A DNA stretch of 64,000 nt, taken from the NCBI RefSeq assembly GCF_000215975.1, contig NC_015682.1, positions 1,364,001 to 1,428,000 of the forward strand. Direction: 5' to 3'. Below are positions 58,457-62,260 of this stretch, one piece after another; the first letter of the stretch is position 1; every line of letters starts with the position of its first letter. The position numbers were made by a program, and so were the translations under genes. The notes under the pieces were generated by a model, which had not been told where the DNA came from, ran no database searches, and was given only the letters and a program-made list of their open reading frames with translations. Source of the stretch: Thermodesulfobacterium geofontis OPF15. GTDB lineage: Bacteria > Desulfobacterota > Thermodesulfobacteria > Thermodesulfobacteriales > Thermodesulfobacteriaceae.

Positions 58457-58490
58457 AACCCTCTGGGATTTCCCCAGAGGGTTTTATTTT
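58457..58490 (+). terminator. rho-independent terminator of the Lys-rich protein gene
   Basis: AACCCTCTGGG / CCCAGAGGGTT, 11-base perfect stem with ATTTC loop, followed by TTATTTTAT. The stop codon of the convergent 146-residue gene lies in the T tract. Confidence 0.93.
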
Positions 58491-58924
58491 ATAACATCAT
58501 CCAATTTTATACCTAAGTCTTTAGCTTTTTTGAGCATTTCTAAAAGTTGAATTTTTAATTTTTCTTTTTCTTCAATTTCAGTTTCTTCTATCTTTGTTTC
58601 TTTTTCCATAAAATAAATTTTAAAACTTTCTAATGGTTTCATCTCCATTACTTCAATTGTCACAGAAATAGGTTTGAATTCATTATTCGGTGTATCTTCA
58701 TATTCTATAGTTATTCTTGTAGGTTTCTCAGAAGCTTCCCTTTTATTCATTTCTTCGATAAGTCTTCTTGAAAGCTCAAGCCATATATTTTTATTTTTTT
58801 CTTTAATATCTTCAGACACATTTTTTCCGTAAAATAATGAATAAAACCACCTTTTTAATCTGAATATAGCTCCTCTACCTGTTGGTGCAATTTTAAATCT
58901 TTGTTGTTTTATCTCCATAATCAA
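58484..58924 (-). CDS. hypothetical protein, 146 aa
   Basis: I do not recognise this protein. It is 146 residues, with a basic start (IKQQRFKIAPTGRGAIFRLKRWFYSLF), a central beta-like part (RITIEYEDTP, FKPISVTIEVMEM) and a Glu/Lys coiled-coil end. No signal peptide or membrane helix. It lies between the Lys-rich protein and the Rrf2 gene. It may be co-transcribed with cydA-cydB-rrf2, as the gap to that gene is 25 bases. Confidence 0.65.
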   Translation of the reverse strand: MIMEIKQQRFKIAPTGRGAIFRLKRWFYSLFYGKNVSEDIKEKNKNIWLELSRRLIEEMNKREASEKPTRITIEYEDTPNNEFKPISVTIEVMEMKPLESFKIYFMEKETKIEETEIEEKEKLKIQLLEMLKKAKDLGIKLDDVIK

Positions 58925-58949: not shown

Positions 58950-59369
58950 TTAAGTAGTTACATCTTGTGTTAAAAGACTCAAAAAATTAATCTCTTTTAG
59001 AGCTTCGATCAATTTATTTCTTACTTTAAACCATATAGGATGAACAGGGCATTGAGAAGAAAGGTTACAAATTTCTCTATTAATAACGCATCTATTTAGG
59101 GTAATAGCTTTTTCTATAGCCACAATAACATCATAAAGGGTTATATCTTTTGGTTTTTTGACTAATTTTACCCCCCCTGATACCCCCCTTTTAAGTTTCA
59201 GTAAACCTGCCTTTTCAAGTTGTTTTAATATTTTCATTAAAAACTTTTTTGGAATTTGCATTTCATTTGAAATCTCTTCAGCTTTTGAAGTATAATTTTC
59301 TTTTTTTGAAAGACAAAGCACTGTTCTTATTGCATAATCTGTTTCTCTTGTAATCTGTAACCCCTTAAT
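58950..59369 (-). CDS. Rrf2-family regulator, probable ATT start
   Basis: The winged helix-turn-helix of Rrf2 proteins begins ITRETDYAIRTVLCLSKKEN, then IPKKFLMKILKQLEKAGLLKLKRGVSGG. Cysteines RCVINREICNLSSQCP (C-x6-C-x5-C) match Fe-S-binding Rrf2 sensors such as NsrR and IscR. The conserved N-terminus lies upstream of the only ordinary start (GTG 59321). An in-frame stop follows a few codons further up, and no ATG/GTG/TTG lies between. An AAGGAGG site at 59376-59382 is 6 bases before ATT 59369, giving MKGLQITRE; I choose that. The ATT overlaps the cydB stop, so re-initiation is likely. Probable role: oxygen/NO-responsive control of cydAB. Confidence 0.75.
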   Translation of the reverse strand: MKGLQITRETDYAIRTVLCLSKKENYTSKAEEISNEMQIPKKFLMKILKQLEKAGLLKLKRGVSGGVKLVKKPKDITLYDVIVAIEKAITLNRCVINREICNLSSQCPVHPIWFKVRNKLIEALKEINFLSLLTQDVTT

Positions 59370-60387
59370 AGCCTTCCTCCTTAAGTTCTTCTTCTGTTAT
59401 TTTATACATAAATGTTTTATATGTCCAAGCCTGATATAAGAGAACAATAGGGACAAAAATTATCACTACAATGGTCATCACTTTCAAAGTATAGGGACTT
59501 GAAGAGGAATTAAATATGGTAAGATTATATTTTGGATCAATTGATGAAGGAATTAAATTTGGATATAGTCCTATCACTCCGCTAAAGACAAGAGCAATAA
59601 TAAATAGAAAAGAAAATAAAAATGCGCTCCCGTTTTTATTTTTCATAATATAAGACCCAGTAAGAAGTAGGCAAACTAAAGCCAAAGCTGGAACAATAAA
59701 CCATATAGGCATTTTTATAAAGTTATCATAGAGATTTGTAAATAGGGCTGTAAAAACAAAAAATAATACAGCAGTAATTGCCTGTAAAAACCAAAATTTC
59801 TTTGCTATTGAAAGTGCACGGTTAGCTAATTCCTCAGGGACTCTTAATGATACCCACAGTCCTCCATGAACTATAAAAGTAAAAAGAAAGAGTAACCCTA
59901 CAAGCAATCCATAAGGATTAAGGAGGCTAAAAAAAGTTCCATAGTAGCCAGAATCATCAAAGGGAAGTCCTTTAAAAATGTTTCCAAAGGCAACACCAAA
60001 AAGTAGAGCTGGAATAAAACTGCCTACAAATAACCAAAAATCCCAAAATTTTTTCATTCCTTCAGAAGTTGATTTTCCTCTAAGTTCCACAGCAACACCT
60101 CTAAATATTAAAGCAAAAAGTATTATTAATAAAGGAGTGTAAAGATAGCTAAACATATAAGCATAAGTTGTAGGGAAGGCAGCAAAAGTAGCTCCTCCTG
60201 CAGTAATTAACCATACTTCATTGCCATTCCAAACTGGACCTATAGCATGTAGCACTGCTCTTTTGTCAATTTCACTTTTACTAATAAAAGGGTAAAGAAT
60301 ACCTGCTCCTAAATCAAATCCATCAAGGGCAAAATAAACTGCCCAAAGTAAACCCCATAAAACAAACCATATAATTTGGAATTCCAT
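59365..60387 (-). CDS. cydB: cytochrome bd oxidase subunit II
   Basis: A 340-residue, eight- to nine-helix membrane protein: ALDGFDLGAGILYPF, AIGPVWNGNEVWLITAGGATFAAFP, FRGVAVELRGK, and the late YQAWTYKTF. It pairs with CydA to reduce oxygen to water with quinol. 2 bases after cydA. Its stop overlaps the Rrf2 start. Confidence 0.95.
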   Translation of the reverse strand: MEFQIIWFVLWGLLWAVYFALDGFDLGAGILYPFISKSEIDKRAVLHAIGPVWNGNEVWLITAGGATFAAFPTTYAYMFSYLYTPLLIILFALIFRGVAVELRGKSTSEGMKKFWDFWLFVGSFIPALLFGVAFGNIFKGLPFDDSGYYGTFFSLLNPYGLLVGLLFLFTFIVHGGLWVSLRVPEELANRALSIAKKFWFLQAITAVLFFVFTALFTNLYDNFIKMPIWFIVPALALVCLLLTGSYIMKNKNGSAFLFSFLFIIALVFSGVIGLYPNLIPSSIDPKYNLTIFNSSSSPYTLKVMTIVVIIFVPIVLLYQAWTYKTFMYKITEEELKEEGY

Positions 60388-60389
60388 TT

Positions 60390-61694
60390 TTACACCTCCT
60401 TTGGTTCAGGTCCTTTTTTTGCATATTTTGAAAGAAGATAAATATCGATAATTCCAAGAGCGCTATAAAAAATTGTAAATCCAATAAGAGAAGCTATAAC
60501 CTGTATAGGCTCCACTGCTTTGGAAACAGCATCAGAAGTTCTCAGTAATCCATAGACAATCCAAGGTTGTCTGCCTACCTCTGCTACAATCCAGCCAAGT
60601 TGTGCTGCTATATAAGGAAGCGGAATTGACCATAAAAGAATTCTTAAAAGTGTTGTGCTTTGCTCAATTTCTTTAAATTTAACCAAAGCTAAAAAGGAAA
60701 GAAGAATAAAAAGAAAACCAAATCCTACCATTAATCTAAAACTTACAAAAGTAAGTGTTACTGGGGGTCTATCTTGAGGTGGAAATTCCTTAAGTCCTTT
60801 AATTTCTTTCTTCCCAGCTAAAAAACTAAGCAAACCTGGAATTCCTATTGCCTCAACTAAATTTTTCTCATTTTTTGGGTCAGGAATAAGCAGGAGATAC
60901 ATTGGTGCATCTTTGGTAGTTTCCCAAAGAGACTCCATTGCAGCAATCTTTGTTGGTTGGGTATGGGCAACTTCATGAGCATGAAAATGACCAATAAACG
61001 CAACTAAAATAGAACTTATAAGTGCAAAGGTGGCTCCGATCTTAAAAGATTTTTTAAAAAATTCAGTTTCATTTTTTCTCAAAAGATGATAAGCAGAAAC
61101 TCCCAGAATAAAAAATCCTGCTACAACCCAGCCTGACATAACAGTATGGAAAAATTTAAGTATTGCATAGGGATTAGTTACAACTGCCCAGAAATCAACC
61201 ATTTCTGCCCTTCCATTTCTTATTACATAACCTACAGGATTTTGCATCCAGCCATTGGCAATTAAAATCCATAAAGCAGAAATATTAGTTGCTAATGCTA
61301 CAAGCCATATTGAAAAGGCATGAAGTTTAGGTGAAATTCTATTCCATCCGAATATCCAAACACCAAGAAAAGTAGATTCAAGAAAGAATGCCAAAGTTGC
61401 TTCAATAGCAAGGGGAGAACCAAAAATATCTCCAACATAGCGAGAATATTCTGCCCAGTTCATTCCAAATTGGAATTCCATTGTTATTCCTGTAACTATT
61501 CCTAAGGCAAAATTAATCAGAAAAAGTACTCCCCAAAACTTTGCCATCCTTAAATAATCTTTATCTCCAGTTGCTACATATTTGCTTTCCATATAAGCTA
61601 CAAGAACTGAAAGCCCCAAAGTAAGAGGAACAAAAATAAAATGAAAAGCAGCGGTTATGGCAAATTGAAGCCTACTTAACAAAACAATATCCAT
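60390..61694 (-). CDS. cydA: cytochrome bd oxidase subunit I
   Basis: 434 residues, shorter than the E. coli 522, so the Q-loop is of the short type. Seen: RLQFAITAAFHFIFVPLTLG (heme b595 His), ITMEFQFGMNWAEYSRYVGDIFG, FHAHEVAHTQPTKIAAMESLWET, and GRQPWIVYGLLRTSDAVS. In a sulfate reducer it serves oxygen detoxification rather than aerobic growth. Promoter at 61788-61815. Confidence 0.96.
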   Translation of the reverse strand: MDIVLLSRLQFAITAAFHFIFVPLTLGLSVLVAYMESKYVATGDKDYLRMAKFWGVLFLINFALGIVTGITMEFQFGMNWAEYSRYVGDIFGSPLAIEATLAFFLESTFLGVWIFGWNRISPKLHAFSIWLVALATNISALWILIANGWMQNPVGYVIRNGRAEMVDFWAVVTNPYAILKFFHTVMSGWVVAGFFILGVSAYHLLRKNETEFFKKSFKIGATFALISSILVAFIGHFHAHEVAHTQPTKIAAMESLWETTKDAPMYLLLIPDPKNEKNLVEAIGIPGLLSFLAGKKEIKGLKEFPPQDRPPVTLTFVSFRLMVGFGFLFILLSFLALVKFKEIEQSTTLLRILLWSIPLPYIAAQLGWIVAEVGRQPWIVYGLLRTSDAVSKAVEPIQVIASLIGFTIFYSALGIIDIYLLSKYAKKGPEPKEV

Positions 61695-61707
61695 TTTTTA
61701 CCTCCTG

Positions 61708-61725
61708 TAATTTTATTATTAATTA
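61708..61725 (-). promoter_or_regulatory. candidate operator repeat A in the cydA leader
   Basis: TAATTTTATTATTAATTA (plus strand). It forms a direct repeat with 61770-61787 (17 of 18 bases) and has inverted ends TAATT/AATTA. It lies just upstream of the cydA ribosome site. Confidence 0.5.
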
Positions 61726-61769
61726 CTTCTATTATCAACTTTTAAAATTTTATAAAGAACAATTTTTTC

Positions 61770-61787
61770 TAATTTTATTATTGATTA
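61770..61787 (-). promoter_or_regulatory. candidate operator repeat B at the cydA -10
   Basis: TAATTTTATTATTGATTA (plus strand), directly next to the -10 (61788-61793). Same spacing and ends as repeat A. A suitable position for an Rrf2-type repressor. Confidence 0.5.
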
Positions 61788-61815
61788 ATTTTATCCACTT
61801 TAAAAAATTTGTCAA
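61788..61815 (-). promoter_or_regulatory. sigma-70 promoter of cydAB-rrf2
   Basis: Minus strand: TTGACA, 16-base spacer, TAAAAT. A perfect -35, and a strong overall match. Confidence 0.8.
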
Positions 61816-61844: not shown

Positions 61845-62226
61845 TTATCTTAAGTTGTTAATTAGCTTTTCTACTTTCTTTTTTATCTCCTCTCTTACTT
61901 TTCTAAAAACTTCTAATTTTTCTTCTTCTGAGCCTTCTGCCTTTGCTGGATCTGGAAGACCCCAATATTCCCTATATGCAGTAGGTATATAAGGACAGGT
62001 TTCTGCAGAATCTTCACAAAGGATTATCACTATATCAAGTTCATTATAGGGTATATTTTCAATAGACTTTGGATAATGAGAGGGAAGGATTAACGTTTAA
62101 TGCTGGAGAAGAACCTGCAGAATAAATTTCTACTTGCTTTCCATACAACTTAGCAAAATATTTAACATATCCTTCTGCCATTTGACTTCTTGCTGAATTT
62201 CCACTACATATAAAACCTATTTTGAT
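61845..62226 (-). pseudogene. arsC: arsenate reductase (LMW-phosphatase type), broken by deletion and start loss
   Basis: Two frames carry one ArsC. The N-part (from about 62226) has the phosphatase loop ICSGNSARSQMAEG and IYSAGSSPALNVNP. The C-part (to 61845) has KSIENIPYNELDIVIILCEDSAETCP and WGLPDPAKAEGSEEEK. They meet near 62079-62088, where about 14 residues normally lie between the NP and SHYPKS segments. The missing ~40 bases shift the frame. The N-part has no ATG/GTG/TTG; at the expected Met, the sequence has ATC. Thus it is probably inactive, although both key cysteine motifs remain. A sequence error could explain the frame shift but not so easily the missing segment. Confidence 0.8.
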
Positions 62227-62260
62227 ATCCTAATTAAAATTTTATCAAAAAAAATTTAAA

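Follow-up and report, generated by a model that had tools for sequence, protein, structure and literature searches.

Judged from sequence, the only plausible start codon of rrf2, a regulator gene behind cydB in the hot-spring sulfate reducer Thermodesulfobacterium geofontis OPF15 (PMC3624685), is an ATT at positions 59367–59369 that shares a base with the cydB stop codon. Genome comparison confirms this start/stop arrangement as real and kept in 13 genomes of two phyla. As the best explanation of the locus as a whole, we consider it highly probable that rrf2 is started at AUU by coupled reinitiation, within a self-regulating cassette of operator, cydA, cydB and rrf2. The new point is the conserved overlap of the '−5' class, AUU starting as such being already known. 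All positions refer to the window, that is, the whole stretch of 64,000 nucleotides that was analysed.

The rrf2 start region and its overlap with cydB

The genes lie on the minus strand in the order cydA, cydB and rrf2, and the start region of rrf2 reads CTTAAGGAGG-AAGGCT-ATT-AAG-GGG-TTA-CAG-ATT-ACA. Its features are as follows.

60390–61694, minus strand: cydA, cytochrome bd oxidase subunit I, an open reading frame; gene order the same in Thermodesulfovibrio
59365–60387, minus strand: cydB, cytochrome bd oxidase subunit II, named by resemblance and synteny
59376–59383, minus strand: extended Shine–Dalgarno (SD) sequence TAAGGAGG, 6 nt before ATT, within cydB codons 335–337
59367–59369, minus strand: ATT start codon, its third base being the T of the cydB stop; invariant in 13 of 13 genomes
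59365–59367, minus strand: cydB stop codon TAA, overlapping the rrf2 start; TAG in genome G067
59358–59360, minus strand: rrf2 codon 4 (TTA), an ordinary Leu codon where other Rrf2 genes carry ATG or GTG
58950–59369, minus strand: rrf2, an open frame of 139 codons plus stop, read from ATT

The rrf2 frame is closed upstream by an in-frame stop at 59397–59399, and its first ATG, GTG or TTG is the GTG at 59321, codon 17, with none of the three between these two points. The protein matches PF02082 with 109.8 bits (Pfam scan; cut-off 30) and TIGR00738 with 104.2 bits (cut-off 73.3). The PF02082 match starts at codon 6, upstream of that GTG, which bears out the claim of an earlier note on this DNA that the conserved N-terminal helix lies in frame before the first normal start. 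No in-frame canonical start can thus yield the conserved Rrf2 protein, as is characteristic of a conserved non-canonical start. The protein stays below every named-subtype equivalog cut-off, scoring 63 against 207 bits for IscR, 80 against 193 for RirA, 53 against 182 for NsrR and 43 against 195 for CymR.

The ATT stands 6 nt after AAGGAGG and overlaps the cydB TAA by one base, both as described in the earlier note, whose coordinates were all exact; that note had neither recognised the class of this overlap nor seen the operator, the horizontal transfer or the conservation. Taken as open reading frames, cydB and rrf2 overlap by 5 nt. The pair shows the structural hallmark of translational coupling, an overlapping stop and start with the SD inside the upstream gene. 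Since the third base of the start is also the first base of the cydB stop, an NTG codon is impossible at this place; indeed, changing ATT to ATG would convert the cydB TAA to GAA and erase the stop. The first two bases of the start (AT) derive from TAT, which encodes the Tyr at the end of CydB. Because the Tyr codon and the stop partly hold these bases in place, the invariance of ATT alone is a weak argument; it is the synonymous pattern downstream of ATT that carries the argument. Tyr is the final CydB residue in every Nitrospirota genome sampled and in the majority of those from the window's own order; CydB ends differently in its own genus.

Scanned on both strands, the window gave no second site with the same anatomy. 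None of the 55 other SD–ATTRR sites in the T. geofontis genome convincingly pairs the end of a long upstream open reading frame with a downstream gene that lacks a start; one start-less candidate was dropped, as it resembled an antisense frame of another gene, seen in a relative too. The survey of genome G066 covered 26 of 71 matches. Within its family, the exact SD–ATTAA pattern without mismatch occurs in the T. geofontis genome only. A search for RNA structure forcing the coupling or hiding the SD found none (z about 0).

Conservation and translation of the first codons

A scan of GTDB genomes returned four close rrf2 orthologues, all from Thermodesulfovibrio or the same genus group, and a search of the genus brought these to 12. 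The comparison of the same locus in relatives, which the earlier note had proposed, shows ATT-AA or ATT-AG at the rrf2 start in 12 of the 12 Thermodesulfovibrio genomes found with the gene and, with the window, in 13 of 13. The spacer between SD and ATT measures 6 nt in all of these but G072, where it is 3 nt, and rrf2 is conserved from codon 1 in the 12 relatives. Codon 4 is TTA, TTG, CTT or CTA in 12 genomes and GTG in G072, and at the aligned place almost every other sampled member of the Nitrospirota has ATG or GTG.

On a tree of 12 sequences, codons 2–5 have undergone 15 nucleotide changes with a single amino-acid change (14 of 15 synonymous, against an expectation of 28% for random change; P about 2e-7). 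Codon 2 is partly constrained by the cydB stop, hence a separate count for codons 3–5, outside that stop, which gave 11 changes, all of them synonymous (P about 2e-6); both P values come from a simple parsimony count with one assumed transition weight. Translation thus covers codons 2–5, and initiation must lie at or before the ATT. Codon −1 of the same frame, in turn, varies in amino acid (Ala, Val or Thr), so that the constraint begins at the ATT. An in-frame TAA stands five codons before the ATT in G067, G073 and G074, which share the run TAA-AGG-AGG-AAR-NNT-ATT; here the ATT is the only near-cognate start between that stop and codon 2. In several relatives the rrf2 frame is open for about 30 codons upstream with TTG codons inside cydB, which the window does not have. 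The SD codons of cydB are likewise fixed: Lys336 (AAG; excluding G072) and Glu337 (GAG) are codon-invariant, whereas cydAB uses 26% AAG and 42% GAG and 36% of conserved twofold columns are codon-invariant. Conservation in 13 genomes, synonymous-only evolution downstream and the lack of an alternative start in the relatives together uphold the earlier proposal that this ATT is the only fitting start.

A start at codon 4 (TTA, CTT, CTA, TTG or GTG), the position used by relatives, or else at codon 6 (ATT, ATA or ATC) is very improbable. Codon 4 aligns with the ATG or GTG of other Rrf2 genes, and is GTG in G072 and TTG in G065, but none of CTT, CTA and TTA is a usual start codon, codon 4 varies freely among synonymous Leu codons and it lies 15 nt from the SD; codons 2–5 are under an amino-acid constraint that would be pointless were they untranslated. 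Initiation at GTG 59321, which would give an Rrf2 without its first helix, is scarcely credible: it is the first canonical start in the window, but in most relatives codon 17 reads GTA, GTC, GTT, ATT or CTG, G062 and G063 offer no canonical start after ATT until codon 37, and the Pfam domain already begins at codon 6.

The main rival, very improbable in our judgement, is a programmed +1 frameshift at the cydB stop (TAT TAA), by which a CydB–Rrf2 fusion would arise and ATT would be no start codon. The rrf2 frame is indeed the +1 frame right at the stop, with an SD-like element ahead of it as in prfB, and codons 2–5 would be translated under a frameshift too. However, the P-site tRNA-Tyr, whose anticodon is GUA, cannot re-pair, the shift from UAU to AUU giving two mismatches; in 12 genomes a distance of 5 nt separates the SD from TAT, as against 3 nt in prfB; and the cydB stop is UAA in 12 of 13 genomes and UAG in the remaining one, the weak UGA not occurring. 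In other Nitrospirota, rrf2 stands apart from cydB as a gene that starts at an ATG of its own, and a fusion would tether a DNA-binding regulator to the membrane. The rarity of ATT starts could suggest a sequencing error or a decayed gene, but the chance of this is negligible, as the arrangement is identical in 13 separate genomes, the rrf2 frame is intact and under purifying selection, and the T. geofontis genome was sequenced at over 3,700x Illumina coverage (PMC3624685). The escape left by the earlier note, an error that had hidden an ATG, is excluded both by the 13 genomes and by the loss of the cydB stop that an ATG would entail.

With initiation at the ATT retained as the preferred reading, genome G072, the sister of all others, suggests how this start may have arisen. 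Its GTG at codon 4 is 12 nt and its ATT 3 nt from its SD, and G072 may start rrf2 at that GTG, as G065 may at its TTG in the same place. In many other Nitrospirota, rrf2 lies close behind cydB with its own ATG. We infer that G072 is near the ancestral state and that the start later moved to ATT in the Thermodesulfovibrio line, codon 4 becoming an ordinary Leu codon. A first Rrf2 tree suffered from badly cut family rows and very long branches, and only its Thermodesulfovibrio subtree and the cydB tree were used.

Transfer and predicted regulation of the cydAB cassette

The cydB gene of the window is 89% identical to that of Thermodesulfovibrio sp. N1 and 51–53% identical to those of its own genus, and full-length matches from its own family reach 59% at best. 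In the cydB tree, the window sits inside Thermodesulfovibrio, adjoining N1. The best Rrf2 match from the window's own genus is situated upstream of cydB. Upstream of cydA, two further elements were predicted.

61788–61815, minus strand: predicted sigma-70 promoter of cydA, TTGACA (61810–61815), 16 bp, TAAAAT (61788–61793)
61782–61796, minus strand: operator predicted for Rrf2, GGATAAAATTAATCA, extending over the −10 box and conserved in Thermodesulfovibrio cydA promoters

In seven genomes of Thermodesulfovibrio, G074 being slightly deviant, the cydA promoter takes the form TTGACA-17-TAAAAT, with a spacer of about 17 bp, and carries GTGGATAAAATTARTCAAC over its −10 box. The cydB identities, the cydB tree and this shared promoter argue that the cassette crossed phyla keeping its ATT start; on these comparisons, the whole of it (promoter, operator, cydA, cydB and rrf2) is horizontally transferred from Thermodesulfovibrio. 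The operator has a single perfect match in the T. geofontis genome, at cydA. In other Nitrospirota, the same palindrome, with the consensus GGATAAAATTAGTCC, is found 19–34 nt before rrf2 at six loci without cydAB seen alongside.

All 13 Rrf2 proteins compared contain the motif Cys-x6-Cys-x5-Cys-xx-His, which probably carries an Fe–S cluster. Operator and cysteine pattern point to a local, autoregulated repressor whose cluster would sense oxygen, NO or iron. Like IscR, NsrR and RirA, this protein has the Rrf2 fold, three cysteines and a following His (as in IscR), and a predicted operator over a promoter; it differs from them in its scores below the equivalog cut-offs, in its Cys spacing (x6, x5) and in its local target, the cyd operon.

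Several further observations concern the surroundings of these genes. An operator-like sequence, GGGGGTAAAATTAGTCAAAAA, lies inside rrf2 (59155–59175, minus strand) and, with 3 mismatches, is the only other match in the genome. The DNA between operator and cydA (61700–61770, minus strand) contains what seems to be a degenerate duplicate of the promoter region (TTTATAAAATTTTAAAAGTTGATAATAGAAGTAATTAATAATAAAATTA), which Thermodesulfovibrio lacks. Farther upstream lies a broken gene (61845–62240, minus strand) that reads IKIGFICSGNSARSQMAEGY and, after a frame change, ILCEDSAETCPYIPTAYREYWGLPDPAK; by motif only, it resembles a low-molecular-weight phosphatase/arsenate reductase. Directly 3′ of rrf2, a gene at 58484–58924 (minus strand) for a protein of 146 amino acids without Pfam or NCBIfam match may be co-transcribed with rrf2.

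Proposed coupled reinitiation at AUU and comparison with known systems

The simplest reading of the overlap is that ribosomes initiate at the AUU immediately after termination at the UAA which overlaps it. Ribosomes finishing cydB at UAA would sit on the extended SD with the AUU in place, and a fraction of them would restart there and produce Rrf2. This AUU is made up of bases from the final cydB codon (TAT, for the conserved C-terminal Tyr) and the T of the stop, and is the best near-cognate codon available there; Rrf2 would thus be produced in a small, fixed dose relative to CydB. The protein, probably Fe–S-bearing, would then bind GGATAAAATTARTCM over the −10 box and repress its own operon. 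Under the best model from these sequence features, Rrf2 would be a low-dose, coupled, autoregulating Fe–S repressor of the bd oxidase. We consider the odds even that the −5 overlap (ATTAA/ATTAG) is, beyond this, a genuine selected coupling, in which a ribosome on finishing termination would start anew at an AUU composed of last sense codon and stop and so set a low fixed repressor dose, even after transfer to the ribosomes of another phylum.

The infC genes of Thermodesulfovibrio have no ATG, GTG or TTG before the conserved N terminus in five of five genomes examined, and in all five appear to start at ATA after GGAGGT; a non-canonical infC start in the donor genus counts in favour of the ATT start at rrf2. 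An ATT start of infC in T. geofontis was ruled out, this gene starting at ATG, and a link of the rrf2 start to IF3 autoregulation is for that reason not seen in the host.

AUU starts, with low expression, are known from infC and pcnB of E. coli. These share their start codon with rrf2, but infC serves IF3 autoregulation, and neither is known to form a −5 overlap with an upstream stop. The low, controlled expression that ATT starts can give according to the earlier note would agree with the efficiencies measured elsewhere for AUU and AUA: about 10% of AUG for such starts with extended SD in S. aureus (PMC13009471), and about 0.3% of AUG for AUU in one E. coli survey, a value cited second-hand in PMC10666635. 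A lowered Rrf2:CydB ratio would follow from such weak initiation. The sigR gene of Streptomyces, with a GTC start limited by IF3 (PMC5472188), similarly yields a regulator at low dose, which for rrf2 would be the inferred outcome, through a conserved non-canonical start and a strong SD; sigR is, however, the first gene of its pair and experimentally proven, whereas rrf2 is the last gene and its AUU would be coupled to the upstream stop. S. aureus cvfC1 (AUU) and ccpN (AUA) resemble rrf2 in their conserved AUN starts, extended SD and regulator-like character, but cvfC1 is first in its operon and the portion of the source available to us describes no stop/start overlap (PMC13009471).

The rrf2 overlap shares with the −4 (NTGA) and −1 (TRATG) termination–reinitiation overlaps its common stop/start bases and an SD in the upstream gene (PMC10666635, PMC6728339), but belongs to neither class. 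Overlaps of −5 are over 1,000-fold rarer than those of −4 and have been suggested to reflect annotation errors and/or rare non-canonical starts (PMC10666635). That register was held incompatible with start codons in a large overlap survey (PMC10666635), and ATT could form it with all three stops, as ATTAA, ATTAG or ATTGA (PMC10666635). Two of these forms, ATTAA and ATTAG, occur among our 13 genomes, and the locus thus gives the −5 overlap evolutionary support from two phyla, TAG variant included. No description of the cydB–rrf2 locus was found in the literature searched, which left most subscription journals outside its scope.

Nature supplies here a clean test of whether start codons are tolerated more widely by reinitiating ribosomes than by free ones, and of whether IF3 plays a part in this. 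Gene callers limited to ATG, GTG and TTG would lose 16 residues of Rrf2 in the window and 36 in each of two relatives, a loss that reaches into the DNA-binding domain.
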